From: Lewinella cohaerens DSM 23179
GTDB lineage: Bacteria > Bacteroidota > Bacteroidia > Chitinophagales > Saprospiraceae
DNA: 64,000 bases
Assembly (NCBI RefSeq): GCF_000379805.1
Contig: NZ_KB903598.1
Span: forward strand, 142,232 to 206,231
Direction: 5' to 3'
Made by a program: the position numbers and the translations under genes. Position 1 is the first letter of the stretch. Every line of letters starts with the position of its first letter. Below, one piece after another: positions 29,779 to 63,800 of this stretch. The notes under the pieces were generated by a model that saw only the letters and a list, made by a program, of their open reading frames with translations, was not told the origin of the DNA and did no database searches.

Positions 29779-30342
29779 GTGTTTAAGAATTATTCCAAAT
29801 GGCCGGATGAAAAGCTGATGAGAGAGGTCCAAAAAGGCCAAGAGGCAGCTTTTAACGTACTGTACGAACGGTATGGCACCAAGCTGTATACCTATTTCTG
29901 GCGTGCTCTGGCACAAGAGAAGGAGGTAGCAAAAGACTTTACCCAACAGCTTTTTCTGAAACTTATTGAGCGGCGTGAATCCTACGATACACGCCGCACT
30001 TTTAGCGCCTGGCTATTTACCATCGCTGCCAATATGGTGAAAAACGAATACCGTAGACGTAGCCGGCTGGCAAAAAATGCAACCCGGTATTCTGCCGGAG
30101 ATAATGCGTTTGAAATACCCTCGTTAGGAGGGCTGGATGTTGATTATCAACAGGCACAACTAAGCAAAGCAATGAACCAGCTGGCAGAGAAACATCGTCA
30201 GGTATTCCTACTCCGCTACCAGGAAGAAATGAGCATCAAAGCAATAAGTGAGGTGGTCGGTTGCCCGGAAGGCACCGTTAAATCCAGATTGTACTATGCC
30301 GTGAAGTACCTGGCAAAGCAATTGGAAAATATCCGTTATTAA
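29779..30342 (+). CDS. ECF-type RNA polymerase sigma factor
   Basis: 187 codons, GTG start directly after the upstream stop codon (TAG-GTG). An internal ATG at codon 14 is possible, but the GTG keeps the whole region 2 ([20 protein letters not shown], then [42 protein letters not shown]-like). Region 4 ([21 protein letters not shown], then [20 protein letters not shown]) carries the DNA-recognition helix-turn-helix. It should direct RNA polymerase to a set of alternative promoters. The next gene encodes a single-span protein that could be its anti-sigma factor. The operon promoter does not show the CGAACA-N17-GTT element seen at the stress genes. Confidence 0.92.
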
Positions 30343-34669: not shown

Positions 34670-34698
34670 CGAACAGGCATTGCAAAAAAAAGGTTTCA
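34670..34698 (+). promoter_or_regulatory. CGAACA-N17-GTT promoter element, DksA-like gene
   Basis: CGAACA (34670-34675), 17-base spacer, GTTTCA (34693-34698), 17 bases before the ATG at 34715. One of eight exact instances of the shared element. Confidence 0.7.
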
Positions 34699-34714: not shown

Positions 34715-35068
34715 ATGAGTACCCCATCAGGAATAGGTTTTACACAAGAACAATTAGACGACTTACGAGAGCGACTGGAAAACAAACAGTCCCGTATATC
34801 AACCGAGCTAAAACGGCTAGAAGAGGAAGAACTCCCAAACCTATACCGCAATGAAGAATCCAACGATGGGTACGGAGATGACGCCAAAAATGACCAGATC
34901 AGGCAAAGGATCGTAGCACAAATAAAACGTCGCCGGAGTGATTTGGAGGCTGTACGAGCGGCCTTGGGCCGAATGGAAAATGGCACCTATGGTGTTGACC
35001 AGAGGACAGGTGATTTTATTCGATTTGAACGTTTACAAGCACTTCCTACAGCCCGAACGGCCATCTAG
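34715..35068 (+). CDS. DksA/TraR-like protein lacking zinc-finger cysteines
   Basis: 117 codons. The N-terminal coiled coil (EQLDDLRERLENKQSRISTE, then LKRLEEEELPNL) carries the acidic NDGYGDDAKNDQ tip, and KRRRSDLEAVRAALGRMENG leads into TYGVDQRTGDFIRFERLQAL, which is the start of a DksA zinc finger (TYGxCxxxGxxIxxxRLxAxP). However, the first cysteine position is Val94/Asp95 and the protein ends (PTARTAI) before the second pair, so no zinc site exists. DksA proteins bind the RNA polymerase secondary channel and adjust transcription during stress. A Cys-independent variant that works under oxidative conditions is known in other bacteria; here it is inference. Carries the stress promoter element. 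Confidence 0.78.
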   Translation: MSTPSGIGFTQEQLDDLRERLENKQSRISTELKRLEEEELPNLYRNEESNDGYGDDAKNDQIRQRIVAQIKRRRSDLEAVRAALGRMENGTYGVDQRTGDFIRFERLQALPTARTAI

Positions 35069-36593: not shown

Positions 36594-36974
36594 TTATACG
36601 ATAGCCTCAGTTGAGTTTTTTACATTTTTTCGGGCTGTTGAGATACCACGCTTGAGCTTACTTTCTGTTCGCTCTACAGCTTCTTCTGCCTGATCTGCTA
36701 CTTCGTCTACACCGCTAGTGAACTTGTTTTTCACGACAGTAGCTGCATGCTGAACAGCTTCTTTACTTTGGTCGATGTATTCGTTGGCCGTTGAGCTGAG
36801 GTTTTCTGCCTGCGTTTTCAGATAATCAGTAGCTTGATTGGTATATTCTACAGCTGAAGTTTGTACTTCTTTACGAACCCGGCGGCCGTGGTTTGAATTT
36901 AACCAATATCCGGCTAAAGCACCTGCTAACAATCCGAATCCTAATTTCCAATTTTGATTTTTTCGGTCTGACAT
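36594..36974 (-). CDS. YtxH domain stress protein
   Basis: 126 codons. N-terminal segment WKLGFGLLAGALAGYWLNSN is the membrane helix of YtxH proteins, followed by GRRVRKE (the LxxPxSGxxxR-like turn) and a long amphipathic helix with regular KTQAENL, SKEAVQHAATV and AEEAVERTESKL heptads. Such proteins are general stress proteins in Firmicutes and Bacteroidota; the molecular role is unknown. Upstream lies an exact copy of the shared promoter element. Confidence 0.85.
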   Translation of the reverse strand: MSDRKNQNWKLGFGLLAGALAGYWLNSNHGRRVRKEVQTSAVEYTNQATDYLKTQAENLSSTANEYIDQSKEAVQHAATVVKNKFTSGVDEVADQAEEAVERTESKLKRGISTARKNVKNSTEAIV

Positions 36975-37031: not shown

Positions 37032-37060
37032 TGTAACCTCAAGGAATAAACAGATGTTCG
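37032..37060 (-). promoter_or_regulatory. CGAACA-N17-GTT promoter element, ytxH-like gene
   Basis: Minus strand: CGAACA (37060-37055), 17 bases, GTTACA (37037-37032), 57 bases before the ATG at 36974. Confidence 0.75.
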
Positions 37061-38272: not shown

Positions 38273-39202
38273 TTACCTGTGGTTATTAATTCTACCTGCT
38301 GTTACCTCTCTGGGCAGGGCATCGGCTATTTTTTCGCCCCCTTTGATTCCAAAGTCCAGGGTTCTTATTGGGAAAGGAATCATAATATCGTTTTCGTCAA
38401 ATGCCTTTTTAATGGCAATGATTGCATCACTCTGGGCTTTTAAGTAGTTTTTTTGACGATAATCGTCGATCCAAAACAGAAGGGTGAAGTTGATAGAGCT
38501 ACTCCCAAATTCATTGAAGAAAAGTTCTACCTCACTGCCTTTGGTGATTGTTACGGACCGTTCTATGGTCTTAATGGCTAGGTCACGAACCTTCTCCAAA
38601 TCATCCCCATAAGACACTCCGCAGCTTAGGTCAATACGTCGACGATTATTTGTACTGTAGTTTTTAAAAGGATTCTGATACGTGATCTTATTGGGAATAA
38701 TGACTTCCTGGCCCTGGAGTGTTTCTATGACGGTAGAGCGCAGGTTGATACTTTTAATGGTTCCAAAAAAATCGTTGCTTTCAACGAGATCCCCTAAATG
38801 AAATGAACGCTTTGTCGACATCATAATTCCGGAAAACAAGTTGACAATAGGGTCTTGCAATGCCAGGCCGATGGCTAAACCAGCGACCCCTGCACCTGCT
38901 AGCAAAGATTGTAATGCGGTATCCAACTGCAATATGCTTAGCACAATCATGATGACCATTAAGACAAAAACAGCGGTGAAAACACTTGATATTAAGCTGT
39001 TAACAGAGCGATTGTCAGAGAAGCGGGTAATAATTTTCTGAACATACTTATTGACGTAGCGTGCAAGGAATATACCAATCGCCAATACGATAGCTGCCAA
39101 AATGAGATTTGGAACAGCAACGACGATGCTGTTGACCCACCCTTCTAACTTTTCTGTCAGGTTATTAAAAGAGTTGTTGAATTGCTGCATCCAGTTCTGC
39201 AT
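38273..39202 (-). CDS. Small-conductance mechanosensitive channel (MscS family)
   Basis: 309 codons. Three membrane segments (about 27-50, 69-95, 100-125) end in the pore-lining GLAIGLALQDPIVNLFSGIM helix, followed by the beta domain GDLVESNDFFGTIKSINLRS and IPNKITYQNPFKNYST, then the cytoplasmic alpha/beta domain. MscS opens under membrane tension and releases osmolytes at hypo-osmotic shock. Divergent from dps; each of the two genes carries an exact copy of the shared promoter element in the 128-base gap. Confidence 0.95.
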   Translation of the reverse strand: MQNWMQQFNNSFNNLTEKLEGWVNSIVVAVPNLILAAIVLAIGIFLARYVNKYVQKIITRFSDNRSVNSLISSVFTAVFVLMVIMIVLSILQLDTALQSLLAGAGVAGLAIGLALQDPIVNLFSGIMMSTKRSFHLGDLVESNDFFGTIKSINLRSTVIETLQGQEVIIPNKITYQNPFKNYSTNNRRRIDLSCGVSYGDDLEKVRDLAIKTIERSVTITKGSEVELFFNEFGSSSINFTLLFWIDDYRQKNYLKAQSDAIIAIKKAFDENDIMIPFPIRTLDFGIKGGEKIADALPREVTAGRINNHR

Positions 39203-39232: not shown

Positions 39233-39261
39233 TGTAACTGGAAGATAGGGGAGCGTGTTCG
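39233..39261 (-). promoter_or_regulatory. CGAACA-N17-GTT promoter element, mscS-like gene
   Basis: Minus strand: CGAACA (39261-39256), 17 bases, GTTACA (39238-39233), 30 bases before the ATG at 39202. It is divergent from the dps element, with the two first boxes 21 bases apart. Confidence 0.75.
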
Positions 39262-39282: not shown

Positions 39283-39311
39283 CGAACATGTTTTTAATAA
39301 TTGTGGTTGAA
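39283..39311 (+). promoter_or_regulatory. CGAACA-N17-GTT promoter element, dps
   Basis: CGAACA (39283-39288), 17 bases, GTTGAA (39306-39311), 20 bases before the dps ATG. An inverted repeat TAATTGT (39298-39304)/ACAATTA (39319-39325) overlaps it and could be an operator. Confidence 0.7.
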
Positions 39312-39330: not shown

Positions 39331-39825
39331 ATGAATTATTTAGGATTAAGTCAGGAACAAGTTGCTAGTACAGGTAAATCACTGAATCAACTGTTGGCTA
39401 ATTATCAATTGTATTATCAGAATTTACGGAACTTTCATTGGAACATATCTGGTGAGAACTTTTTCGATCTACACGAGAAATTCGAAGATCTTTATGAAGA
39501 CGCGAGATTGAAAATTGATGAAATAGCTGAACGGTTACTGACCTTGCAGTTGCGCCCATTATCTACGACCTCCGCTTATCTTGAGTCAGCAAAAATCGAG
39601 GAAGCAGGTAAAGTGTTAGATAGCCACAAAATGGTGAAAATCATTCTTGAAAATCATAAAATACTTATCGCCGACATGCGTACGATTATCAGTCGTGCTG
39701 GTGAAATTGATGATGAAGGTACTATTGATATGATTGGTGGTTTCCTTAGTGAAATAGAGAAAAAGAGTTGGATGTTGGATGCTTGGCATTCACGCAGCAG
39801 GAAAAGTTTTCCAGTTGAAGTATAA
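39331..39825 (+). CDS. dps: Dps-family DNA-binding ferritin-like protein
   Basis: 164 codons. The Dps ferroxidase site is visible: NLRNFHWNISGENFFDLHEK (His and the second ligands) and FEDLYEDARLKIDEIAERLL. Length and four-helix arrangement are normal. Dps forms dodecamers that oxidise and store iron using peroxide and protect DNA under starvation and oxidative stress. Expression from the shared stress element fits. Followed by a strong terminator. Confidence 0.93.
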   Translation: MNYLGLSQEQVASTGKSLNQLLANYQLYYQNLRNFHWNISGENFFDLHEKFEDLYEDARLKIDEIAERLLTLQLRPLSTTSAYLESAKIEEAGKVLDSHKMVKIILENHKILIADMRTIISRAGEIDDEGTIDMIGGFLSEIEKKSWMLDAWHSRSRKSFPVEV

Positions 39826-47944: not shown

Positions 47945-48298
47945 CTCATCATGATTTTGATTTTGATTGATGTTGACTAACTCGTTGATTGTCAGTTGCT
48001 AAATTTAGCATTATTTTCTTGCTTTAGGGCTTGCTCTCCTGATTCAATATGGACTTTCTCAGGTTTTACCAACTAGTTTTTTGTGAGGGGGACAAATATG
48101 GCCGCTTTTTTATTCGATTTTGCAGGCCTTTACCCCAAAGATCCAATCCGCGAACCGAACAGGTGAGCGCGGTAAGCGGAGCGCGCAGGGACTAAGGATG
48201 GGAGGACTGCAAGGACGGACAGCCTGACGCCACCGCAGGTAGGCGGAGGCCCATAATGGTTCGATGGTTTACCTGGTTCAACTTCCTGATTTTCGTAT
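47945..48298. repeat. Intergenic stretch with a CT/GA-rich dispersed-repeat block
   Basis: No credible gene. The block 48126-48252, read on the minus strand, contains GGCTGTCCGTCC, CTCCCATCC, GTCCCTGCGCG and CTCCGC in the same order as the block near 6053-6135 on the plus strand (GGGCTGTCTGGTC, CTCCCGTCCATCCC, GTCCTTGG, CTCCGC). I read this as two diverged copies of one intergenic repeat family in opposite orientation. Confidence 0.4.
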
Positions 48299-48306
48299 TA
48301 CCTTTG
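48299..48306 (+). promoter_or_regulatory. -7 box TACCTTTG upstream of tamB
   Basis: Perfect TAnnTTTG match 84 bases before the tamB start. With the stress-type element at 48336-48363 this gives a potential dual promoter. Confidence 0.45.
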
Positions 48307-48335
48307 GTATAAGCCAATAGATGAGTCTGATGGAA

Positions 48336-48363
48336 CGAACAAAGTCCGCTAAATCAGGTTTCA
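48336..48363 (+). promoter_or_regulatory. CGAACA-N16-GTT variant promoter element, tamB operon
   Basis: CGAACA (48336-48341), 16-base spacer, GTTTCA (48358-48363, followed by T), 26 bases before the TTG start. Both boxes are perfect; only the spacer is one base short. Confidence 0.55.
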
Positions 48364-48389
48364 TAATGGTTAAATAATCAACCCCGACA

Positions 48390-51300
48390 TTGTTGAATAA
48401 CGGAATTAAACGGATTTTAAAGGTGGCAGTAGGGCTCTTGCTGAGCCTGGTGTTTTTGCTGTTGCTCTTGATAGCGGCCTTGTATACGGAACCTGTGCAA
48501 AATTGGGTGACGAAGCAGGCTGATTCGTACCTGGAGCAAACCTTGAAAACGGAAGTAGGTATTGGTAGCTTTGGCTTGGGTATCCCCAAATATTTACAGT
48601 TGCAGGATGTTTATATCAACACCCCAAATGGAGACCGCCTTGCCCGCCTGGGATACCTGAAGGTGGACCTGGATATGTGGGCCTTGCTGCGCCAAGAGAT
48701 AAGCATAGGCGAAGTGGTGCTGGAAGACGTGTACGCCAGGATAATCACCACCGATAGTAGTAGCAATTTTCAATTTATCATTGATGCCTTCGCGCCTGCC
48801 GATACTACGACCATAACGCCTGTGGCTGACCCTGTTGCTCCTTCGGCCTGGACGTTTAATTTAGAACAAACAACACTGGGGCTTAATGATATTGACCTCT
48901 ACTACCAGGATGACCCTGGTGGCTTGTTGGTTGATTGGCAACTGGGAAAGGGTGTGGTCGTTGCTGATGATGTGATTGATATCGAAAAGCAGTCTTTCCT
49001 GTTTGAACGACTTTTTCTCCAAAAAGCAGATATTAAAGTGGCATTAGGCCCAACTGATGCTTCGCCTGTTGATACGACGGCAACAAGGGCAGCCATTGTT
49101 GCAGCTTGCCAGAATTTACTGCTGGAGGAGGTGAACTTTAGCTTGACGATGGATAGCCTGGAAGTGCAGTCGGCTTTTACTGTTTTACAGGTGGAAAAAC
49201 TTCGAACTACCCTAGGGGAAACAACGGTAGCCTCTTTTGCTGATTTGAACTTGCAAGGGGCGAACCTAAAATACGATACCCCGATTGCACCTACAGAAGA
49301 TGGTTTTGATCTTAATCATATTGCCATTAATGCCATCAATGGCGAGCTTTCGGATTTCGATTTTTCAGGGACTCAATTGGTGGCTGAAATTATTGAGTTT
49401 CAGGCTAAAGATCAAGGTGGTTTGCAGCTCAATCAACTGAGTGGTGATTTAGCTTATGATTCCACTGCTTTGGTTGTAGATAATTTGGTGCTGAATACGG
49501 AGGGGAGTAGTCTTGATGCAAAAAAAATCCGTTATGGTTTTCCGGCAGACAGCCTTAGTAATGACTTGGATCTTACTTTGGACGCACAGGGCGGCCTAGC
49601 GATCAGTGAATTGTTATTGTTGCTTCCTGCTAGTCTTACTTCGCCTTGGCTGCGAGACTATCCGGGGAGTAGCGTTGATTTTTTGGCTCATTTATCCAGC
49701 GAGGGTGAGCAGCTTGATATCCGTCAGCTGCAGGTTAAGGCACCTGGTGTAGATGTGCGAGCAAAAGGGGAAGTTTACCAGCCACTGAACCCTGATAAAA
49801 TAGGAGGGAGGTTGGTATTGGATCGTTTTCAGGTACAGCCGGGAAAAGTAAAAGTACTCTTACCACCTGATTTGTTGCCCGATTATATTGAGTGGCCCCG
49901 GCTTATTAGTGCACAAGGGCAGCTAAGCTATTTAAACCAAAACCTATCATTGAATTTACAGGCCCGAGAGGAACGTTCAATGAGCCAATTTTGGACGCAG
50001 TTTTTGGTGAAGGGGGAAATCCTGAAGGCCGATGATTATAAAAAGGCAACATTTGATGTAGCAATGGATACCCTGTTTGTGACCCAACAAAGTATCCTGG
50101 CCTATCTGCCCCCCAAGGCATTACCTGAAGGTTATCAAATTCCAGATTATCTAGAAGCGACGGGCTCCCTCAGTGGGCCCATTGATGATTTGAACGTTGA
50201 CTTTCAGCTTTCCCTTCCCGGGAGAACATCCTACCTTAAAATGGGAGGGAGCTTGCGAGAAATACTGAAGCCGGAGTCGCTTGCGCTGGATATAAAGGTA
50301 AATGACCTGAAGGTAGCAATGACTGATGTTTTGCCATTATTGCCTGATAGCTTGCTGCCGGCTTATTTGAATACGCCTGACCTTCGGATAGAAAACGCTA
50401 CAATAAAAGGCAAACTGGATGACCTCGCATTTGATTTACCTATCCAAACGAGTAATGGTAATGGTCGTATTAGTGGGGTTTATCATCCAGAGGATTTTTC
50501 GCTTGACCTTGATTTGTTTGATGCGGAATTGGCTGGTTTTTTTAAAGGGGCGATGTATGACACTATTGCTAGTCTAGCATTGCAGCCCTTACGGATGGAA
50601 ATACAAGCAACAGGAAGTTTAGAACCCATTTTGACGGCCAGTATCCATACCCGTCTGACGGAAGAAGAGCGTGGCCAGTTGTTGGATCTTAATGCAGCAA
50701 TTGAGGAGGAAGACTACCGTGCGCAGCTCGTTTTTTCTCACCCTTATTTACGGGGAACCGGGCAAGGAAGCTACCAAATGCAGGATAGTGTTGCTACAGT
50801 GAGTGCAAATCTTGATCTTGAAAAAGTTGACCTCAATTTCTGGCAGCTTAGCGATCGACCGCTACTGGGGTCGGGAAAATTGGAAGTCAATAGTACGGGC
50901 CTGGAGGCCGATCAATTGGATGGGCGGATTTATTTGGACAACATCCTCCTGCGTGGTGAAGGGGCTGCCGCTTACATTGACAGTATGCTTATTTTGGCAA
51001 AACTGGATCAGGGAAACAATCTGGTGAGCATCAATAGTGATGTGTTGGAGGGTAGGCTGAGTGGCTTTTTTGATCCCGTAGAAGTGGTACCGGAACTTAT
51101 CCGGTTTTTGCAATCCTATCTGGACGAAGACCCTTTTGAAGGGGACCCCGTTGTCAATGGCCGCAATTTTGATTTGGAAATAGATTTGACCAATCCGCGG
51201 CCTTTCGTTTCGGGCATAATACCAGGGTTGACCGAGCTTTCGCCTTTTAACTTTAGTCTGAATTATCGAGATAAAACGCCGGCGTTGTTGTTTGATTTGC

Positions 51301-53639
51301 AACTAGAGCAGCTGAATTACAGTGGTATTGTGCTGGAAGGGATGAAGTTGAATGCGGAAGGCGATGAGCAACAATTTGCGCTCAACGGTGATTGGCGGAA
51401 TATTACCATCGGTGAAGATATTGTCATTGGGCAAACAAGTGTGGAAAGTAAGCGAATAGAGGGAGGTGTAAATACAACCATGAAGGTATTTGCTAAGGAA
51501 GAACTAAGGCACCAGCTTTCTTTTAATTGGCAGCAGTCGATAAGAGGGCAGGAGATTTCTCTGGAGCCGACGCAGGTGATCAATTTTTTAGAATGGCGAT
51601 TGCCAGAAGACAATGCCATCATTGTTAAAGACAGTACCGTTCGTGTAAAAGACTGGGAGCTTAGCCGCAATGATCGTGCAATTCGTATTGAGGATACCGA
51701 GCAAAATGGATTGTCTATTGGCTTCGATGATGTGAATTTGGCACGCTTTAGTAGTTTGATCAACTCAGAGGAAGTACTCTTGGGGGGGATTATGAACGGC
51801 CACTTTTACCTGGATGAAATTTTTACAGAACCGGGGCTTCGCGCTGATCTGGAAATTGCACAGTTGGCTTATTACGAACAAGCGATGGGAGATTTTGCAG
51901 TGGCGGTTAGTTCAGAAGATAATACCAATTTCGAGATGTCTGCCAGTTTGAATGGTGCAGGAAATGAAGTGTCGATAAATGGTGCCTACAGAGACGGGGG
52001 AGTATTGGATTTACAGTTGGACATGCAGCAACTACAGCTTGCCAGTATTGAGCCTTTCTCGCTGGGCTATCTGACAAAGACGGAGGGGTATTTACAGGGA
52101 GACCTGAATATTCGAGGTGCCGTTAATAAACCTGAAATAGATGGGCAGGTAAACTTCCGAGATGCCGTTTTGTCGATCAGTATTCTTGGAAGTAGCTACC
52201 AGCTTAACGACCAAAGCATCCGCTTCGACGGAAATACGATGCGCTTTGACCAGTTCACCCTTTTGGATGTTAATAACAACAACGCTACGCTCGATGGAAG
52301 GATCGTCGTTAACGCTTTGGATAATATTCAGCTTGATCTACAGGCGCGGACAAAGGACTTTTTGGCTGTTAATTCTACAGAAAAAGACAATGACCTTTTC
52401 TATGGTTATTTGCGTGTGGATGCTGATGTAACCATCGGTGGAACGGCAACAGAGCCCCGGCTGATTGTTGCGGCATCCCCTAGTAGTGAGTCAAACCTGA
52501 CTTATGCTTATTCTGCGACGGACCAGGCCCGTGTTGAAACGACACAGGGTGTTATTACCTTCGCCGAAACCTACGAGTGGGACGAGATCATCGCCAATGA
52601 AAAGCGGGATACTTTAATCTCCGAAGTGAGTGGGGCCTACCTGGAAACTAATCTCAAAATCAACGAAAAATTACGCATTCGGGTCATTGTTGACCCTATC
52701 ACTCAACAGGAGTTTTCTGGCCGAGGGAATGGGAATATTACGTTTATTCAGTATCCCACGGGACAGCAGCAGATGACTGGGCAGATTAAAATGGCCGGTG
52801 GCGCTTATGATATGGTTTTGGAAGGGTTACAATCCTATACTTTTGACTTGAAAGCAGGCAGTGGGATTTCCTTTACAGGTAACCCCACTAATCCTCAGTT
52901 TGACCTCACCATAACGAATACCATTAAGGCCAGTCCACTAACATTGGTGGAATCTATGTCGGGTACTTCCACAGAAACAGGATTAAGGCAGCGAGAAACT
53001 TTCCTCGTTTCACTAGACCTCGAGGGAGACTTGGACGGTATGGACATCAAAGCCGATATATTGTATCCGGAAGACGACTACGGTAACCAAAATTTTGATG
53101 CCGTAAACTCAGCACTTGATGAACTTCGCCGTGACCAGAGCAAGGTTTATTATACAGCTATTATGCTGATTACCTTCAAGAGTTTTGTCATTCCGAAGGT
53201 AGACTTTGGAGGTGATTCACAGGACAATATCGTTAATGGGGTAGCTGGTGCTGTAGGGGATGCATTGAGCCAGTTGGTGAACAGTCAGCTAGGCTTCGTA
53301 GATTTTGACCTGGGCGTGGAAAACAACCAGACAAGTACTGGTGAGCAAAATTATAACCTCCGGCTGAGTTTGCAAAAAAGTTTCTTTAATGACCGTTTGA
53401 TTGTCAGTGTTGATGGGGTCACCAATACGGCAGCAGAGGCAGATACGCAAGGGGGGGATGCGCAAACCTATATTGATAACGTGTCGGTCGCCTATCTCTT
53501 GGATCCTGATGGAAACCTACGGGTTAAGCTCTTCAATGATCGTGATCGTAATGAATTTGTGGGAGGGAACACGATCCGCTTTGGTGGCCGGCTGGTATTC
53601 AGTAAAGACTTTGATCGTTTCTTTTGGGAGAAAAAATAA
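48390..53639 (+). CDS. tamB: TamB-like translocation/assembly and lipid-transfer protein
   Basis: 1749 codons, TTG start at 48390 (a second TTG follows at once). No in-frame ATG exists before the N-terminal membrane anchor (ILKVAVGLLLSLVFLLLLLI-like, about residues 9-28), so the TTG start is needed. The body is a long series of amphipathic beta strands forming the AsmA/TamB-type hydrophobic groove (for example ADLNLQGANLKY, GELSDFDFSGTQLVAEIIEF), and the end carries the conserved TamB domain (GNGNITFIQYPTGQQQMTGQ, GGAYDMVLEGLQSYTFDL). It spans the periplasm and is thought to move phospholipids to, or assemble proteins into, the outer membrane. Its partner gene follows after 14 bases. Confidence 0.92.
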   Translation: MLNNGIKRILKVAVGLLLSLVFLLLLLIAALYTEPVQNWVTKQADSYLEQTLKTEVGIGSFGLGIPKYLQLQDVYINTPNGDRLARLGYLKVDLDMWALLRQEISIGEVVLEDVYARIITTDSSSNFQFIIDAFAPADTTTITPVADPVAPSAWTFNLEQTTLGLNDIDLYYQDDPGGLLVDWQLGKGVVVADDVIDIEKQSFLFERLFLQKADIKVALGPTDASPVDTTATRAAIVAACQNLLLEEVNFSLTMDSLEVQSAFTVLQVEKLRTTLGETTVASFADLNLQGANLKYDTPIAPTEDGFDLNHIAINAINGELSDFDFSGTQLVAEIIEFQAKDQGGLQLNQLSGDLAYDSTALVVDNLVLNTEGSSLDAKKIRYGFPADSLSNDLDLTLDAQGGLAISELLLLLPASLTSPWLRDYPGSSVDFLAHLSSEGEQLDIRQLQVKAPGVDVRAKGEVYQPLNPDKIGGRLVLDRFQVQPGKVKVLLPPDLLPDYIEWPRLISAQGQLSYLNQNLSLNLQAREERSMSQFWTQFLVKGEILKADDYKKATFDVAMDTLFVTQQSILAYLPPKALPEGYQIPDYLEATGSLSGPIDDLNVDFQLSLPGRTSYLKMGGSLREILKPESLALDIKVNDLKVAMTDVLPLLPDSLLPAYLNTPDLRIENATIKGKLDDLAFDLPIQTSNGNGRISGVYHPEDFSLDLDLFDAELAGFFKGAMYDTIASLALQPLRMEIQATGSLEPILTASIHTRLTEEERGQLLDLNAAIEEEDYRAQLVFSHPYLRGTGQGSYQMQDSVATVSANLDLEKVDLNFWQLSDRPLLGSGKLEVNSTGLEADQLDGRIYLDNILLRGEGAAAYIDSMLILAKLDQGNNLVSINSDVLEGRLSGFFDPVEVVPELIRFLQSYLDEDPFEGDPVVNGRNFDLEIDLTNPRPFVSGIIPGLTELSPFNFSLNYRDKTPALLFDLQLEQLNYSGIVLEGMKLNAEGDEQQFALNGDWRNITIGEDIVIGQTSVESKRIEGGVNTTMKVFAKEELRHQLSFNWQQSIRGQEISLEPTQVINFLEWRLPEDNAIIVKDSTVRVKDWELSRNDRAIRIEDTEQNGLSIGFDDVNLARFSSLINSEEVLLGGIMNGHFYLDEIFTEPGLRADLEIAQLAYYEQAMGDFAVAVSSEDNTNFEMSASLNGAGNEVSINGAYRDGGVLDLQLDMQQLQLASIEPFSLGYLTKTEGYLQGDLNIRGAVNKPEIDGQVNFRDAVLSISILGSSYQLNDQSIRFDGNTMRFDQFTLLDVNNNNATLDGRIVVNALDNIQLDLQARTKDFLAVNSTEKDNDLFYGYLRVDADVTIGGTATEPRLIVAASPSSESNLTYAYSATDQARVETTQGVITFAETYEWDEIIANEKRDTLISEVSGAYLETNLKINEKLRIRVIVDPITQQEFSGRGNGNITFIQYPTGQQQMTGQIKMAGGAYDMVLEGLQSYTFDLKAGSGISFTGNPTNPQFDLTITNTIKASPLTLVESMSGTSTETGLRQRETFLVSLDLEGDLDGMDIKADILYPEDDYGNQNFDAVNSALDELRRDQSKVYYTAIMLITFKSFVIPKVDFGGDSQDNIVNGVAGAVGDALSQLVNSQLGFVDFDLGVENNQTSTGEQNYNLRLSLQKSFFNDRLIVSVDGVTNTAAEADTQGGDAQTYIDNVSVAYLLDPDGNLRVKLFNDRDRNEFVGGNTIRFGGRLVFSKDFDRFFWEKK

Positions 53640-53653
53640 AGCTTGAAAAATTT

Positions 53654-55978
53654 ATGCAAAGAACGCTACGATACATTTTATCTCTTTTTTTACTCCTGGC
53701 CTTACTCAGTAACTGTCAGGTGAAGCGTTATTTGCCCGCCAATGAATATCTCCTCAAAGGGGCGAGCCTGGATTTGGTCGCAGTCGATAGTGTAAACACG
53801 GCTAAATTGCGTGAGCAAGCTATGGAGAGCATCTCACAGCGGACCAGCCCTCGTTGGCGCGTGTGGTGGTATTATCGAAAAAATGCCCCTTTACGGTGGT
53901 TAGGTAAAGGGATCGGAAGGGAACCCGCTTTTTATCAGGATCGCCAAAGTCAGCAGATGCTGGAGATCTTGCAAAACCGTGCAACAAACGAGGGGCACTT
54001 TTATAGTTTAGCATCGTATACCACGGATACTATTGAGCAACAAAAAGCGATTCAGGTAAAATATCAATTGAAGGTAGGAGAGGCTTATCGTATTGACACC
54101 ATCAGGTACGCCATTCGCGATGGTTCTGTTGCCAAGGTTGTCGATAGCCTTAGTAATAAAAGCCTTTTGGTAGAAGGAGGGCGTTACACGTTGAGGCAAC
54201 TGAAATTGGAACAACAGCGGCTTGAAAATGGATTAAGGGAGCAAGGGTTTTACTATTTTTCTGCTCAGGATTTAGATTTCCTCGGGGATACGATTGGCAA
54301 TGAGCATGGCGTAAAGTTGCTTTTGAAATTAAAAGATGGCCTGGCCCCTCGCCATCTGGTTCCACAGCGTTTGTATCGAATAAAAATTTTCAGTAATTAC
54401 AATCGTCGTGATCAAGAACTGGGCCTGAGTGACACAACATGGTATGAGGGTTTACAGATTATTTGCAAAGATTGTCCACTGCGCCCCGAAATAATGGCTG
54501 AAGCGGTAGCACAGCGGCCGGGAGTGTTATATAACCCTCAAGCGCATGAACAAACGATTGAACGCCTGGCCAACCTCAATACTTTTCAGTATATCAGTCT
54601 TAATTATGAACCCGTCAACGGACAAGATAGTCTATTGGATTTGGTGATTAACCTGTCGCCCCAGTTGCCTCGGTCTATTTCGGGGGAGGTCGGTGCAGCC
54701 TATAATAGCGGCCGGTATTTTGGTCCTGAGTTTGGCTTCAATTACACGAATAGAAATCTTCGGCAAGGAGCAGAGTTGTTTACCCTGGAAGGTGATGTGA
54801 CTTATAACTTTTTCCTGGGGCCAGTCAACGAAAGCAGAATACCACGCTCCGGTATTTTTAGCCTCCAGGCAGGCGTGGAAATTCCCCGGTTTTGGTTACC
54901 ACAGCGGGAAAGAATTTTGCCCACTTTTCTACAAAGCAGTACGAGTATCCAGCTGGGCTTTAAAATGGAAAGTATCCGGTTGCAGCTGAATCGTTTTGCC
55001 ACAGAAATCGAAGACAATGATTTTCAGCAGCTGGGGATGTTGCTGGCTGATGATGCGAATGCTACTTCCGGCGTGCGGCTCTGGCAGGTGAGTGGAGAGT
55101 ACGCCTACAGTTGGCGGCGGAAACCTATTATTTCAAGCGTTTTCACTGTCTTACGACTTCGCTATCAAAATCCTGAGGTTGCTACCGAGGAGTTGTTGAG
55201 TTTGAGCCGTTCACTGGGTTTTACCCAAGGTTTGAGTGGCTTGGGGCGCTTGGATCGCATGTTTCTTTGGGGACCAGCCTACGGCTGGACCTACGATTCT
55301 CGCCTACGCAGGAAGACTACCAAGCCAAGCCCTCATAACTTCTTTGCCAGCTTGGAGTTAGGGCTGGTTTTCAACAGAATATTACCCGTAGGAAGCAATG
55401 AACGATCATTGGCCGCGGAGAATAGCAATTACTTGCAACCGGAGGCGGATGTACGCTATTACTTCGAGGTTAACAGGTCTATAACCCTGGCCGCTCGCGC
55501 CCACATGGGCGTTGCAGCACCTTTGGGTGGCCGGGCGATAGTACCTTATTTTGACTTGTATACGGTGGGGGGACCTAATAGTCTCAGAGGGTTTATCCCT
55601 CGTGGTTTAGGCCCTGGTGTCACGGTGCCTTTAGATAATAATTTACTGGGGCAAAATGGCTACGGGAATGTCTTGTTTGAGAGTAGCCTGGAGGCCCGCT
55701 ACCAGCTGGGGCAAATGTTTCAAATCGTAGCTTTTGCCGATGCGGGCAATGTATGGTTGTATAAAACAGAAGAAGAGCCCACTACTGCAGATTTTAGTGT
55801 GGATCGGTTTGCGCAGGAGCTGGCCGTTGATGCCGGAGCAGGTGTACGTGTAGATTTATCTTTTTTGTTGATCAGGATCGATGTGGCCAAGCCTGTTTCA
55901 ATTCCTTATGAAGGCAATACAGGAACCTCACCTAATCGAAAGCCACGGTTTGTGCTGGCGTTTGGGCAGGCGTTTTGA
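53654..55978 (+). CDS. TamA/BamA-family outer-membrane protein, lipoprotein form (TamL-like)
   Basis: 774 codons from ATG 53654 (MQRTLRYILSLFLLLALLSN then Cys21), a lipoprotein signal; the frame to 53624 overlaps tamB. POTRA-type domains (about 30-340) contain VKYQLKVGEAYRIDTIRYAI and AHEQTIERLANLNTFQYISL; the C-terminal half is an Omp85 barrel with YTVGGPNSLRGFIPRGLGPG, the conserved lid-loop RGF motif of Omp85 proteins. A lipidated TamA variant paired with TamB has been described in Bacteroidetes as TamL. The pair is expected to support outer-membrane biogenesis. Confidence 0.9.
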   Translation: MQRTLRYILSLFLLLALLSNCQVKRYLPANEYLLKGASLDLVAVDSVNTAKLREQAMESISQRTSPRWRVWWYYRKNAPLRWLGKGIGREPAFYQDRQSQQMLEILQNRATNEGHFYSLASYTTDTIEQQKAIQVKYQLKVGEAYRIDTIRYAIRDGSVAKVVDSLSNKSLLVEGGRYTLRQLKLEQQRLENGLREQGFYYFSAQDLDFLGDTIGNEHGVKLLLKLKDGLAPRHLVPQRLYRIKIFSNYNRRDQELGLSDTTWYEGLQIICKDCPLRPEIMAEAVAQRPGVLYNPQAHEQTIERLANLNTFQYISLNYEPVNGQDSLLDLVINLSPQLPRSISGEVGAAYNSGRYFGPEFGFNYTNRNLRQGAELFTLEGDVTYNFFLGPVNESRIPRSGIFSLQAGVEIPRFWLPQRERILPTFLQSSTSIQLGFKMESIRLQLNRFATEIEDNDFQQLGMLLADDANATSGVRLWQVSGEYAYSWRRKPIISSVFTVLRLRYQNPEVATEELLSLSRSLGFTQGLSGLGRLDRMFLWGPAYGWTYDSRLRRKTTKPSPHNFFASLELGLVFNRILPVGSNERSLAAENSNYLQPEADVRYYFEVNRSITLAARAHMGVAAPLGGRAIVPYFDLYTVGGPNSLRGFIPRGLGPGVTVPLDNNLLGQNGYGNVLFESSLEARYQLGQMFQIVAFADAGNVWLYKTEEEPTTADFSVDRFAQELAVDAGAGVRVDLSFLLIRIDVAKPVSIPYEGNTGTSPNRKPRFVLAFGQAF

Positions 55979-56080: not shown

Positions 56081-56419
56081 CTAAGCCACTTTCTGATTCT
56101 GGTTCTGATGAGATACTTTTACCTTTATCTTATCAATAAAAGAAACAAGCTCCATGTTGGCATCTGTTGAATAGCTCATAATAACGGTTCCCTTTTCGTC
56201 TGTATTAGTTTCAATAGCGAAGATGACGGAACTATCGGCGGGGTTAGTCATGCCTTCAAAGCGGTGATATTCGACAATTAGTAAATCTTTTGCCTGATAA
56301 ACATGATTGTTTTGTATACTTAGCAAACGATTGTCGTCGAATTTGAATTCACTATCAAAACCTCTTTTACTGAGTTCTTGCGTAGCTTCAACCAGATTGT
56401 CGTAGTAATTAAGGTTCAT
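56081..56419 (-). CDS. Small protein of the so-called phosphoribosylpyrophosphate synthetase group
   Basis: 112 codons. YDNLVEATQELSKRGFDSEF at the start, IVEYHRFEGMTNPADSSVIF in the middle and GTVIMSYSTDANM towards the end match a small Bacteroidota family that databases often label phosphoribosylpyrophosphate synthetase, although it lacks the PRPP-synthetase fold and length. Real function unknown. It carries an exact copy of the shared promoter element, linking it to the stress set. Confidence 0.75.
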   Translation of the reverse strand: MNLNYYDNLVEATQELSKRGFDSEFKFDDNRLLSIQNNHVYQAKDLLIVEYHRFEGMTNPADSSVIFAIETNTDEKGTVIMSYSTDANMELVSFIDKIKVKVSHQNQNQKVA

Positions 56420-56438: not shown

Positions 56439-56467
56439 TTAAACCAATTTTAATGTTTAGATGTTCG
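56439..56467 (-). promoter_or_regulatory. CGAACA-N17-GTT promoter element, PRPP-synthetase-like gene
   Basis: Minus strand: CGAACA (56467-56462), 17 bases, GTTTAA (56444-56439), 19 bases before the ATG at 56419. Confidence 0.7.
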
Positions 56468-56624: not shown

Positions 56625-59600
56625 TTGATTTTGGAGACACCATTAATACCACCACAGGCGGAGTTTGTTAAGGATTTCCCCCATCCCATTCTTCTAGTTG
56701 CAAATAGCGGCTTGGTTCATTGTGTCAATGAAGAAGCTGCACATCTATTGCAGTTTACCGAGCAGGAATTGCTTGGCCGGTCTTGGGCAGGTATCGATGC
56801 TCACCTGACGCTCATTGCCTGGAAGGCAGCCTGGAAACAACTACAACAAGAAGGTTTTCTACGTTATACTACAGACCTGGCAATGAGTGGTGCACTTCTT
56901 AGGCCAGTAGAGGTGACGATAGTGTCTATTGACAAGAAATTGGCTTTTGCTTTCATTGATGATCAAATAGCGCATACCGGCAAAAAAGCACAGCTCTCCT
57001 CTCTTAGTTTACAAACAAATACGGGTTATTGGCGCTACGACGCTTTACGTAAGCAATGGCACTTGTCTTCCCTTGTGATGTCCTTTTTTAAGTGGGAAAC
57101 TACTGAAGAAGAGACTATCGTGGCCAATGAAGTTTTTGAAGAAAAGATGGCAGCTTGTCTGGTGCCCAAAAGTTGGACTAAACTTAAAGATAAATTTGAG
57201 CAGGCTTTACGAGAGGGCGCCCCTTTTGAAGAAGAGGTCTTGTTGCAAGAAGACTTTGAATATCCAAGGTTATCAGTAAGCGGTGCCAGCTTAACCAATG
57301 CACTACATACGGTGCAAGTAGTCGGTACTTTGTCTCTGCCCTTTTCTAAGCGGCAAGAACTGGATGGTAGTAAACTGGCACAGTTTAGCCTGGATCATGC
57401 TCGGGATATGATTTATTGGCTCCGTGAGGATGGCCAAGTTGTTTATGCGAATCAATCCTTCTTGAATCGGATGGGATATACCCAATCAGATTTATCTAAA
57501 TTGAAGGTAGGTGATTTTGTTGTGGGCAATACAAAGGAAGCTTACCAAGCGTTTTGGGATAGCCAGCGAAGTGAAAAGTTTGCTAGTGGTGAATTTAAAA
57601 TAACCTCAAGAAAAGGCAACGAGATCATTGCGAGTTTTAGTACCAACTTTGTCCGGCACGATAAGCAGGAATTGCTATGTGTTTATTTACGTGATATAAC
57701 CCTTAATAAAGAGCGAAATAAGCTTTTGGAGCTGACCCAGTTTAGCACTGATAATGCGCCAGATTTGATTTTTTGGACATGTCCTGACGGTTCTTTTCGG
57801 TATGTGAATAACATAGCTGCTCAAAAGCTGGGATATAAATCTGAGGACTTTCAGGGAATGGGGGTGAAGGCCATTGCCCCTTATTTTGATGAGGAGGCTC
57901 GGTTGATGTTTTGGGAGCGGTTGAGAAAGGAAAAAAGTTTCCACGCAGATTTTATGCTTACCGGCAAAAACGGAGAACTGATTGATACTTCGGTGATTGT
58001 GAATTATTTGTCTTTTGGTGGGGAGGAAATTGCCTGTAGTTTTTGCCGTGACATAACAATGGCCAAAGCGCGCCGCCGGCGTCGTGACCTGTTGGAATTT
58101 ACGCTGGATAGTACACGTGATATGATTTTATGGTCGCGCCCGAATGGGATCGTCCAGTATTCTAATGAACGGTTTCTTAAAAAGACAGGTTATTCAGAAG
58201 AAGAAGTGAATGGCAAAAGCATCAAGCATTTATTTACCCAGGAATCGTTTCAGCAAGGGGATGTTTGGGAAGAATTGCGAGAATGTGGTGAAATTCGAAA
58301 AGAAGTTGTTTTGCTAAGCAAAAAAGGCCAGGAAATGGTACTTGAGGCCAACTTCAATTATATTAACTATAACGGGGAAGAATATAAGTGTATCTACTTT
58401 CGGGATTTAAATAAAAAGAAAAAGCGTGATTTAGCGCTGAAGCTTTCTTATGCCGCCCTGGAAGCAGGAGAAGAAGTGGTTGTTTGGTTAAAGGAATCTG
58501 GTGAAGTACAGTATCTGAATCGGGCAATGGTCAATTATATTGGCGGCCAAAAAGAAGATTGGGAAGGCCAACAATTGCACCGGGTTTTTCCTCAGTTAAA
58601 GCTAAACAAAGTAGTACCGGGAACTTCTATTGAATACAGTATGCCATCACAGCAAGGGCATACGGTGTATTTAGAGCTTACTTTTAGTGAGATCCACCAG
58701 GAAGGAAATCGTTTTCTGGTAATTATCGGAAGGAACTTTACAGAGCGTTATTTACGACGAAAAGAAATTGAAAAAGCCCAAAGTCGTATTGAAGAGTTGA
58801 GCGCTCGTCTGCAAGAAGAAAATGTGATGCTACGGGAAGAGGTGAGTGCTGATTACAGGGTAGATAATATTGTGACGGTTAGCCCCAAGTATCAAAAAGT
58901 GCTACGGCAGGTCAGCCAGGTTGCTGATGCTGATACGACCGTGCTAATTTTAGGAGAAACCGGTACAGGGAAAGAATTATTAGCGCGCGCTGTGCACGAA
59001 CTAAGCGAGCGTGAGGACTATCCTCTGATAAAGGTCAATTGTGCTGCCCTGCCAGAGAATTTGATCGAAAGTGAATTGTTTGGCCATGAACCAGGAGCTT
59101 TTACAGGTGCACAAGCACGAAAAAAAGGCCGCTTCGAATTAGCTAATAAAGGGACTATATTTCTCGATGAGGTAGGAGAGCTGCCACTGGCTTTACAGGC
59201 TAAGCTCTTGAGAGTCTTGCAAGAAGGAGAGTTCGAGAGGGTAGGGGGGACAGAGACGACCAAAGTGGATGTGCGCCTGATAGCAGCAACGAATCGCTCA
59301 CTGGAGGCCATGGTGAAAGAAGGGCGTTTTCGTGCTGACTTGTACTACCGACTCAATGTTTTTCCAATCGTAAATATTCCTTTACGAGAACACCCAGAGG
59401 ACATTCCTGTGTTGGCGGAGCATTTTGTTCGCCGTTTTGCTCAGCGCTTGGGTAAAAAGATTGCCAAAATAAATGCAGCAGATTTAGAACGTTTAAACAG
59501 CTACCACTTCCCAGGTAATGTGCGAGAGTTAGAGAATATCATTGAACGAGCAGTCGTACTTTGCAATGAAGAAACGTTGAGAATTCCGCTGGACAAACAT

Positions 59601-59798
59601 CAGGATCATGACCTGTTGGAAACCAGTTTTCCTACATTCGAAGAAATGCAACGGAACTATATTATTGAAGCGCTCAAGCGGACAGATGGCCGAATCACCG
59701 GCCCGGAAGGAGCGGGCCGACTGCTAGGGCTAAACGACCGTACGCTCATGTCTAAGATGCGGAAGTTTGGTATCAAAAAAAGAGAATACATTATTTGA
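56625..59798 (+). CDS. Sigma-54-dependent activator with multiple PAS domains
   Basis: 1057 codons, TTG start at 56625 (in-frame stop TGA at 56616; the next in-frame ATG is about 87 codons later, inside the first PAS domain). At least five PAS units can be seen, starting at DFPHPILLVANSG, SLDHARDMIYWLREDG, STDNAPDLIFWTCPDG, TLDSTRDMILWSRPNG and ALEAGEEVVVWLKESG, then a coiled coil (EKAQSRIEELSARLQEENVM), the AAA+ domain with GETGTGKE (about 776-783), GAFTGA (about 824-829) and FLDEVGEL, and a Fis-type helix-turn-helix. GAFTGA is intact, so contact with sigma-54 is expected. No membrane span, so a cytosolic sensor. I saw no -24/-12 promoter in the window. Confidence 0.93.
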   Translation: MILETPLIPPQAEFVKDFPHPILLVANSGLVHCVNEEAAHLLQFTEQELLGRSWAGIDAHLTLIAWKAAWKQLQQEGFLRYTTDLAMSGALLRPVEVTIVSIDKKLAFAFIDDQIAHTGKKAQLSSLSLQTNTGYWRYDALRKQWHLSSLVMSFFKWETTEEETIVANEVFEEKMAACLVPKSWTKLKDKFEQALREGAPFEEEVLLQEDFEYPRLSVSGASLTNALHTVQVVGTLSLPFSKRQELDGSKLAQFSLDHARDMIYWLREDGQVVYANQSFLNRMGYTQSDLSKLKVGDFVVGNTKEAYQAFWDSQRSEKFASGEFKITSRKGNEIIASFSTNFVRHDKQELLCVYLRDITLNKERNKLLELTQFSTDNAPDLIFWTCPDGSFRYVNNIAAQKLGYKSEDFQGMGVKAIAPYFDEEARLMFWERLRKEKSFHADFMLTGKNGELIDTSVIVNYLSFGGEEIACSFCRDITMAKARRRRRDLLEFTLDSTRDMILWSRPNGIVQYSNERFLKKTGYSEEEVNGKSIKHLFTQESFQQGDVWEELRECGEIRKEVVLLSKKGQEMVLEANFNYINYNGEEYKCIYFRDLNKKKKRDLALKLSYAALEAGEEVVVWLKESGEVQYLNRAMVNYIGGQKEDWEGQQLHRVFPQLKLNKVVPGTSIEYSMPSQQGHTVYLELTFSEIHQEGNRFLVIIGRNFTERYLRRKEIEKAQSRIEELSARLQEENVMLREEVSADYRVDNIVTVSPKYQKVLRQVSQVADADTTVLILGETGTGKELLARAVHELSEREDYPLIKVNCAALPENLIESELFGHEPGAFTGAQARKKGRFELANKGTIFLDEVGELPLALQAKLLRVLQEGEFERVGGTETTKVDVRLIAATNRSLEAMVKEGRFRADLYYRLNVFPIVNIPLREHPEDIPVLAEHFVRRFAQRLGKKIAKINAADLERLNSYHFPGNVRELENIIERAVVLCNEETLRIPLDKHQDHDLLETSFPTFEEMQRNYIIEALKRTDGRITGPEGAGRLLGLNDRTLMSKMRKFGIKKREYII

Positions 59799-60387: not shown

Positions 60388-60585
60388 TTACTTGCCGATG
60401 CTGTCAATAATATCTTTTACTTCGGCTTTCGTTTTACCAAGCTTTTCTTGTAGCCGACCTAAAATTTCGTTTTCCTTACCTTCTTGAAAGGCGAGGTCAT
60501 CGTCGGTAAGTTGGCCATATTCTTGCTTGAGTTGACCTTTGATTTGATTCCAGTTTCCTTTTACTTGATCACTAAATGCGCTCAT
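60388..60585 (-). CDS. CsbD family stress protein
   Basis: 65 codons. SDQVKGNWNQIKGQLKQEYG followed by QLTDDDL and the C-terminal GKENEILGRLQEKLGKTKAE match CsbD (YjbJ) proteins, which are induced by general stress in many bacteria; molecular role unknown. Typical length. Preceded by an exact copy of the shared promoter element. Confidence 0.92.
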   Translation of the reverse strand: MSAFSDQVKGNWNQIKGQLKQEYGQLTDDDLAFQEGKENEILGRLQEKLGKTKAEVKDIIDSIGK

Positions 60586-60609: not shown

Positions 60610-60638
60610 TGTAACTGAGATAGTGGTGATGATGTTCG
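60610..60638 (-). promoter_or_regulatory. CGAACA-N17-GTT promoter element, csbD-like gene
   Basis: Minus strand: CGAACA (60638-60633), 17 bases, GTTACA (60615-60610), 24 bases before the ATG at 60585. Confidence 0.75.
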
Positions 60639-60706: not shown

Positions 60707-60735
60707 CGAACACCACCCTTTAAATAAGGGTTTCA
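60707..60735 (+). promoter_or_regulatory. CGAACA-N17-GTT promoter element, yqjE-like gene
   Basis: CGAACA (60707-60712), 17 bases, GTTTCA (60730-60735), 31 bases before the ATG at 60767. Divergent from the csbD element. Confidence 0.75.
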
Positions 60736-60766: not shown

Positions 60767-61168
60767 ATGATACGACCAACGAGCACTGATTTTACAGAAG
60801 ACCTGGGAGAGGCTATTGGCTATTTTGAGGTTTTTGCAGAACGGAAGATTCAAATAGCGAAGCTGGATGCAGCCGAAAAAATGGCTAGCATGACCGCTTC
60901 TTTGGCTACTGGGTTTATCCTGCTTGCCTTATTGCCCGTCTTTTTGTGTGTACTAAGTGTAGCGGTCGGTTTTTTATTGGTAGAATCATTTGGATTCTCA
61001 TTTGCAGATAGCTTTTTACTCCTCAGTGGGGTGTACCTATTACTGGGTTTAGGTTTGTTTGTCGGCCGGCAATACTTTTTCACGAACCCTATTGTGGAAA
61101 AGGTTGTTGCTGCGCTTTTTAGGAACAGCACGAAAATAAAACACGATTTTGACTTTCATAATAGTTAA
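60767..61168 (+). CDS. Phage-holin-superfamily (YqjE-like) membrane protein
   Basis: 133 codons. A short cytoplasmic helix with EVFAERKIQIAKLDAAEKMA, then two long membrane segments (SLATGFILLALLPVFLCVLS and LLLSGVYLLLGLGLFVG) and a basic C-terminus, the layout of YqjE/Phage_holin_3_6 proteins. In enterobacteria yqjE lies with yqjD and yqjK, ribosome- and membrane-associated stress genes. Function unknown. The last 12 codons form one arm of a large inverted repeat (61133-61232). Confidence 0.82.
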   Translation: MIRPTSTDFTEDLGEAIGYFEVFAERKIQIAKLDAAEKMASMTASLATGFILLALLPVFLCVLSVAVGFLLVESFGFSFADSFLLLSGVYLLLGLGLFVGRQYFFTNPIVEKVVAALFRNSTKIKHDFDFHNS

Positions 61169-63061: not shown

Positions 63062-63712
63062 TTATTGTTCGTTTGTTTTAAAGAGGTAGTTTTTCAATGC
63101 TATTGAAAATTGCTCAGTAGGGGAGAAGGTGCCATCCTCGTTTTGGCGCAGCACTTGTGTGTATTCATCCACAGGCGCTCCCATGAGCGTAAATTGCACT
63201 ACGCGAGCTTTCTGTAGGATATCCAAGCGAGTATCGCCGTCAAAATCTTGTAGCCAGCTATCCATTTGCCAACACATACTTTCGCTGCAATAGTAATTGG
63301 CAAGGTTACGGACAAATACCAATTGATCCTTCTTTTTAGTGAATAACCCAATCATGTTTTGTGTGCCTGGGCCATGGAAACGTAGGAGATAAGCGTCAGT
63401 GGCACCATATCGTATTTTATACAGGGCGTAAGTTTTGAAATCACTGGGGAGTTCATCGCGCCAATTGGCAGAAAAAAGCCGGTAGAGGCCTCGTTCTACA
63501 GGAGTGCCATAGAAGGTAAAGTCGGGATCGTTTTGAGTTTTGGTTGGCGCGAACAGGTGCAAATTCCCAACGTTAGCAATTTCGAAATTTTTCTCAAAAG
63601 CAACCCATGCACTTGCATTATCATTTTGGGCAGCTAAATTAGAAATACTGAATAAGATGGTGAGCGCTAAACAGGATATTGGAAGGGTGTTTTTTATTAA
63701 AGACCTAAACAT
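63062..63712 (-). CDS. Secreted protein of unknown function
   Basis: 216 codons. Signal peptide MFRSLIKNTLPISCLALTIL to about residue 28 (NLAAQ). The mature domain has FTFYGTPVERGLYRLFSANW, YGATDAYLLRFHGPGTQNM and WLQDFDGDTRLDILQKARV; DFDGDTRLDI resembles an FG-GAP-like calcium loop. A cysteine pair (YYCSESMCW) may form a disulfide. No family recognised. First gene of an operon with the yihY-like gene; carries an exact copy of the shared promoter element. Confidence 0.7.
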   Translation of the reverse strand: MFRSLIKNTLPISCLALTILFSISNLAAQNDNASAWVAFEKNFEIANVGNLHLFAPTKTQNDPDFTFYGTPVERGLYRLFSANWRDELPSDFKTYALYKIRYGATDAYLLRFHGPGTQNMIGLFTKKKDQLVFVRNLANYYCSESMCWQMDSWLQDFDGDTRLDILQKARVVQFTLMGAPVDEYTQVLRQNEDGTFSPTEQFSIALKNYLFKTNEQ

Positions 63713-63771: not shown

Positions 63772-63800
63772 TGGAACCCTCTTTTTTCTCATTATGTTCG
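63772..63800 (-). promoter_or_regulatory. CGAACA-N17-GTT promoter element, operon 63712-62153
   Basis: Minus strand: CGAACA (63800-63795), 17 bases, GTTCCA (63777-63772), 59 bases before the ATG at 63712. Confidence 0.7.

Follow-up and report, generated by a model that had tools for sequence, protein, structure and literature searches.

Outer-membrane assembly genes are placed under an ECF sigma factor in the sigma-E (RpoE/RseA) system. The general stress response of alphaproteobacteria relies on another ECF sigma factor, EcfG, which reads GGAAC-N17-20-GTT promoters (PMC6599016) and is controlled by NepR/PhyR (PMC4814048). In Pseudomonas syringae, the enhancer-binding proteins HrpR/HrpS together with sigma-54 transcribe hrpL, and the product HrpL (ECF32) is, according to the available sections of PMC8999054, controlled by its synthesis with no anti-sigma factor. 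Among the Bacteroidota, sigma-54 promoters of Flavobacterium psychrophilum (SM4) precede protein-quality-control and envelope genes, including one of the AsmA family, and the genes served by an ECF motif with CGT as its -10 box (SM6) include those for type IX secretion (PMC9723704). TamB and TamL have no occurrences in the main text of that study, and its available sections describe no sigma-54-to-ECF relay. Flavobacterium johnsoniae encodes a second adjacent tamB-tamL pair, TamB2-TamL2 (Fjoh_1899-1900), in which TamL is a lipoprotein; the pair is deletable and non-essential, and its function is stated to be unknown. TamB2 and TamL2 were named in a 2025 study whose available sections offer no insight into their function and no description of their regulation (PMC12045153).

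Here we describe a TamB2-TamL2-like pair from Lewinella cohaerens DSM 23179, encoded in a 64,000-nucleotide stretch of DNA that was analysed as a whole (the window). It resembles the F. johnsoniae pair by layout, but sits in an island of stress genes. From the DNA sequence we propose that positions 48336–48364 are probably an ECF-type promoter that places tamB2-tamL2 in a local stress regulon through a sigma-54-to-ECF chain. The sites of this regulon (CGAACA-N17-GTT) resemble EcfG promoters and likewise precede general stress genes, but NepR/PhyR-type partners are absent from the scanned neighbours of the island sigma factor. The wiring alone is like that of HrpL, in that an enhancer-binding protein and sigma-54 would make an ECF sigma factor; the phylum is different, the targets are stress and outer-membrane assembly instead of type III secretion genes, and the activator has PAS domains. 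The first-pass annotation of this DNA had drawn an analogy to sigma-E. The outcome of that analogy holds, with outer-membrane assembly genes apparently under an ECF sigma factor, but the wiring does not: the scanned neighbours lack an anti-sigma domain, control apparently runs via sigma-54, and the island regulon includes cytoplasmic stress genes. A literature search of titles and abstracts, with most subscription journals outside its scope, returned no description of either a tamB2-tamL2 stress promoter or a sigma-54-to-ECF relay in Bacteroidota. A recurring stress promoter before tamB2-tamL2 would give the pair a testable context, namely when it is made and together with what. That a second outer-membrane building set is apparently switched on with neighbouring stress genes offers a clue to its role.

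The tamB2-tamL2 locus

The tamB gene of the window (positions 48390–53639, + strand, TTG start, 1749 aa; Pfam TamB, 1.3e-38) is the second tamB of its genome, G000. The other, ordinary tamB lies elsewhere (G000:C89:95512) and is 22% identical; no ORF of 100 aa was found beginning at its end. Immediately following tamB2 is tamL2 (53624–55978, + strand), which starts either at TTG 53624, overlapping tamB2, or at ATG 53654, and encodes an Omp85 lipoprotein (NCBIfam lipo_TamL, 442 bits against a cut-off of 400). The pair has the TamB2-TamL2 layout, a second tamB with an adjacent or overlapping lipoprotein tamL. A scan of genome contigs for named relatives returned 23 loci, the best (47%) in a Lewinellaceae MAG.

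Three elements upstream of tamB2 had been noted before, and their positions, the TTG start at 48390 and a 16-base spacer were all confirmed. CGAACA (48336–48341, + strand) is the proposed -35 box and GTTTCAT (48358–48364, + strand), as read from the sequence, the proposed -10 box of an ECF-type promoter. This candidate site has the orientation of the gene and lies 54 nt ahead of its start codon. Further upstream, TACCTTTG (48299–48306, + strand) resembles a vegetative -7 box (TAnnTTTG), with 29 bases between its end and CGAACA. The stretch before these elements (48130–48260) has many G and C and aligns poorly with the congener G062.

A local cluster of CGAACA-N17-GTT sites

The eight exact CGAACA-N17-GTT cases claimed in the first-pass annotation are real, and all were located in the window. 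On the forward strand they precede a DksA/YteA-like gene (site 34670–34695, gene 34715–35068), a ferritin/Dps-like gene (39283–39308, gene 39331–39825) and a gene without known family (60707–60732, gene 60767–61168). On the reverse strand they precede a YtxH-like gene (37035–37060, gene 36594–36974), an MscS-type channel gene (39236–39261, gene 38273–39202), a CsbD gene whose start is 53 nt away (60613–60638, gene 60388–60585) and two further genes without known family (56442–56467, gene 56081–56419; 63775–63800, gene 63062–63712). Two more sites lie beyond the window end. All are 45 to 88 nt ahead of a start codon, and none of the window sites falls inside an ORF over 120 aa. When CGAACA-GTT spacers of 10 to 25 were counted over 74 kb (the window plus 10 kb), N17 occurred 10 times, N16 twice, and N24 and N25 once each; one of the two N16 sites is that of tamB2 and the other is within a gene.

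Genome-wide, the longer pattern CGAACA-N17-GTTNCA has eight matches (control, 2), all of them in a 33 kb island (C68:176901-209747), so the regulon appears to be local. A genome-wide regulon was rejected for this genome, there being no such match outside the island. With the spacer relaxed, CGAACA-N14..20-GTTNCA gave 27 matches in the whole genome against 36 in the reversed control and is thus no more frequent at large than by chance. A comparable cluster is present in the congener, where 8 of 11 N17 sites fall within 31 kb (7390768–7422127) around its own tamB2 (7407887–7413127); the total of 11 is less than twice the control there (6), and the evidence from this genome is the clustering. One G062 gene has an N16 site where its G000 counterpart has CGAACT-N17. 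Across the 21 N17 sites of the two islands, an A stands two bases 5′ of the box in 95%, and after GTTN a C follows in 76% and an A in 95%; because CGAACA and GTT were the criteria for choosing the sites, information comes only from these outer positions. In a third genome, G055, nine CGAACA-N17-GTTNCA sites are spread over nine contigs, and the regulon may be wider there than in the window genome.

The tamB2 site shares the CGAACA and GTTNCA boxes of the island pattern as well as the conserved A two bases 5′ of the box, and its distance from the start codon is within the island range; its spacer is 16 bases, the island norm being 17. Two matches to CGAACA-N15..19-GTTTCAT occur in the window against 0.01 expected, and these same two are the only ones genome-wide (reversed control, 0). 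CGAACA-N16-GTTNCA has five matches in the genome, the tamB2 site included, and N16 sites were rejected as an enriched class on that count.

Conservation upstream of other tamB2 genes

We compared the upstream stretches of 19 tamB2-type genes, which were hand-picked by the score of similarity matches and, where visible, a TamL neighbour, and not by a tree. CGAAC-N17/18-GTT is found within 120 bp upstream of 6 of the 19, or 5 of 18 when the discovery case is excluded, so that the conservation of CGAACA upstream of orthologous tamB genes, which the first-pass annotation had named as a test, is borne out. Dinucleotide shuffles gave a mean of 0.05 and a maximum of 2, with none of 1000 reaching 6, and the motif had no match on the opposite strand or in the reversed sequence of the 19 stretches. 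Extending the search to 300 bp returned the same six matches and no more, all at -52 to -108. The full CGAACA box, followed by N16/17 and GTT, precedes four of the 19 genes, against 0.015 by shuffling.

In G062, whose tamB2 is 75% identical, the aligned sequence is ATGGAACGAACA, all twelve bases of which match, with the canonical N17 spacer to GTT and a position 52 nt ahead of the TTG start. The site is CGAACA-N16-GTT at -74 in G055 (36% identical) and at -62 in G052, CGAACC-N16-GTT at -59 in G006, and CGAACT-N16-GTT at -108 in G020. The 16-base spacer had been counted as a weakness of the window site. This objection mostly dissolves, as N16 is found in three genomes and N17 in one among the four full-CGAACA tamB sites. 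The six motif-bearing genes come from six genera when the genus of the window is counted, with G000 and G062 sharing one, and the six cases are therefore not fully independent.

The site could instead be a chance match in an unrelated leader, with tamB2 outside the regulon. Such a reading would draw on the N16 spacer in an island of N17 sites, on the five CGAACA-N16-GTTNCA matches in the genome, and on the 13 of 19 tamB2 genes without the motif, among them that of the same-genus G063 (43% identical). It is made quite improbable by the recurrence of the motif, at -52 to -108, in 5 of the 18 tamB2 genes other than that of the window, and by the failure of all 1000 shuffles to reach the six of the full set. 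We consider it likely, from these comparisons, that a stress promoter before tamB is real.

Several related observations lie outside these counts. Three genes were left out of the 19 as nearer to ordinary tamB (G022, G036 and G004); at -228 G004 has a CGAAC match with spacing one base longer, and in G022 TGAAC is matched at -40. In G015, CGAACA-N17-GTT occurs ∼360 nt upstream of the tamB2 start, beyond the 120 and 300 bp counted. With starts as chosen by script or ORF list, all six motif-bearing tamB2 genes begin with TTG and the 13 motif-less ones do not; the coincidence is perhaps a clade effect. Sigma-54 control of tamB2 itself was rejected, since TGGC[AC]-N6-TTG is absent from the 300 bp upstream of all 19 tamB2 genes.

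The vegetative box

In a second reading, the vegetative box TACCTTTG drives tamB2, either by itself or together with the ECF promoter. A perfect TAnnTTTG does stand 91 nt ahead of the tamB2 start, and a block just 5′ of it, ATTTTCGT, is common to the window and G062. There is no TTG anywhere in the 39 bases ahead of the -7 box (48260–48298), so the -33 element is lacking and the match covers just one of the two halves of the vegetative consensus. Moreover, TAnnTTTG occurs within 120 bp upstream of just one of the 19 tamB2 genes, the window gene itself, against a shuffle mean of 1.03, and the count is still one of 19 within 300 bp; as a conserved element, the box was rejected as no more than chance. 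The place aligned to it in G062, the closest relative, reads TATCTTCG. Transcription from this box is accordingly unlikely, and with the vegetative promoter unsupported, the dual promoter is unsupported as well. Of the earlier proposal that tamB belongs to the stress regulon with a dual promoter, the regulon half emerges stronger than originally claimed and the dual-promoter half falls away.

The island ECF sigma factor

An ECF sigma gene encoding 168 aa lies within the island, 2.7 kb past the window end (C68:208949-209452; as the ORF L060:12715-13221, C68:208946-209452), and is the candidate reader of the sites. Relatives at 1e-15 are present in 64 of 64 genomes; among the matches listed, only those of G062 (86 and 73%) and G055 (70%) are at least 70% identical. 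The genomes with the closest sigma factors, G000 (100%), G062 (86%) and G055 (70%), also have the highest N17 site counts, at 8, 11 and 9 (controls 2, 6 and 1); each of the remaining 61 genomes has 0 to 4. In an order-wide search of 396 genomes (E up to 1e-62), a sample that did not contain G055, the island sigma factor was found only in G000, G062 and G020.

The promoter before tamB2 may be real but read by another ECF sigma factor, the island sigma factor and its sigma-54 relay being mere neighbours. Several ECF groups share -35 boxes of the GAAC type. With 48 sigma-70 region 2 matches in the genome, another ECF could read the CGAACA...GTT boxes; six of these, among the matches listed, are close relatives of the island sigma factor at 1e-15. 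G052 also bears the tamB2 motif, yet its best sigma match among those listed is weak (3.4e-42, 45%). Against this, site number among the 64 genomes peaks in G000, G062 and G055, the three ranked closest by their sigma factor, and the sites cluster around the sigma gene in both G000 and G062. On balance we regard a different reader as unlikely too, marginally more so than transcription from the vegetative box, and take the island sigma factor as the putative partner of the sites. A further ECF sigma gene in the window (29779–30342), followed by a gene on the same strand, lies outside the site cluster and was therefore set aside as a candidate.

The island sigma factor apparently has no anti-sigma factor: a scan of seven L060 ORFs neighbouring its gene matched no anti-sigma domain. 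The two flanking proteins, of 233 and 356 aa (L060:11839-12540 and L060:13550-14620), have no Pfam match. G000 and G062 both keep these two proteins next to the sigma factor, a CGAAC-type site precedes each of them, and such neighbours could hide an anti-sigma factor of a novel type. The congener G062 has a further copy of the sigma gene just 3′ of tamL2 (G062:C1:7404927-7405418), which carries a palindrome and a sigma-54-type promoter of its own.

A sigma-54-type promoter and a candidate relay

Upstream of the island ECF gene is TTGGCAC-N5-TTG, a sigma-54-type -24/-12 element, with GATTAAATATAATC 54 nt upstream of it. Sigma-54 is encoded in the genome. TTGGCAC- or TGGCAC-N5-TTG precedes the ECF gene in G000, G062 (both copies), G055, G020 and G006 (two copies); the element is weak before the homologue in G008 and absent before that in G023. 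Before the homologues in G020 and G006 (both copies), the element comes without the palindrome pattern. The composite of palindrome and sigma-54-type element has 9 sites in the 64 genomes and 10 in the 396 genomes of the order; 4 are shared, giving 15 distinct sites, and the reversed control returned none in either set. At all 15, an ORF 48–100% identical to the island sigma factor starts within 80 nt.

The candidate driver of the ECF gene is a sigma-54 activator with PAS, AAA+ and HTH_8 domains (Pfam) encoded in the island (56625–59798, + strand); its counterpart in the G062 island is 79% identical. By-eye comparison placed 10 of 34 activator-like matches, among the matches listed, within 10 kb of an ECF gene of the island-sigma family. 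The best activator match of G055 lies ∼16 kb from tamB2 and is, among the matches listed, not near any ECF gene.

These elements suggest a regulatory chain, which is a new lead beyond the initial finding. The PAS-AAA+ activator would sense a signal and, with sigma-54, fire the -24/-12 promoter from the palindrome GATTAAATNNAATC. The ECF sigma factor would then be made, apparently without an anti-sigma factor to hold it, and polymerase carrying it would read CGAACA-N16/17-GTT before the ferritin/Dps-, CsbD-, YtxH-, MscS- and DksA-like genes and before tamB2-tamL2. Under stress, the second TAM may in turn help with assembly of the outer membrane or the supply of lipids. We lean, if only slightly, towards the fuller conjecture that in this family of Bacteroidota a general-stress island is run by such a relay, in which a PAS activator takes part and an anti-sigma factor is lacking, that TamB2-TamL2 is its outer-membrane arm and the stress counterpart of the housekeeping TAM, and that the palindrome promoter marks a family of ECF sigma factors wired in the same way. 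If true, a sigma-54-to-ECF relay would allow a stress response in Bacteroidota to operate with no anti-sigma factor. In G055, four ECF paralogues (L115, L120, L171 and L172) lie behind the palindrome-sigma-54 composite.
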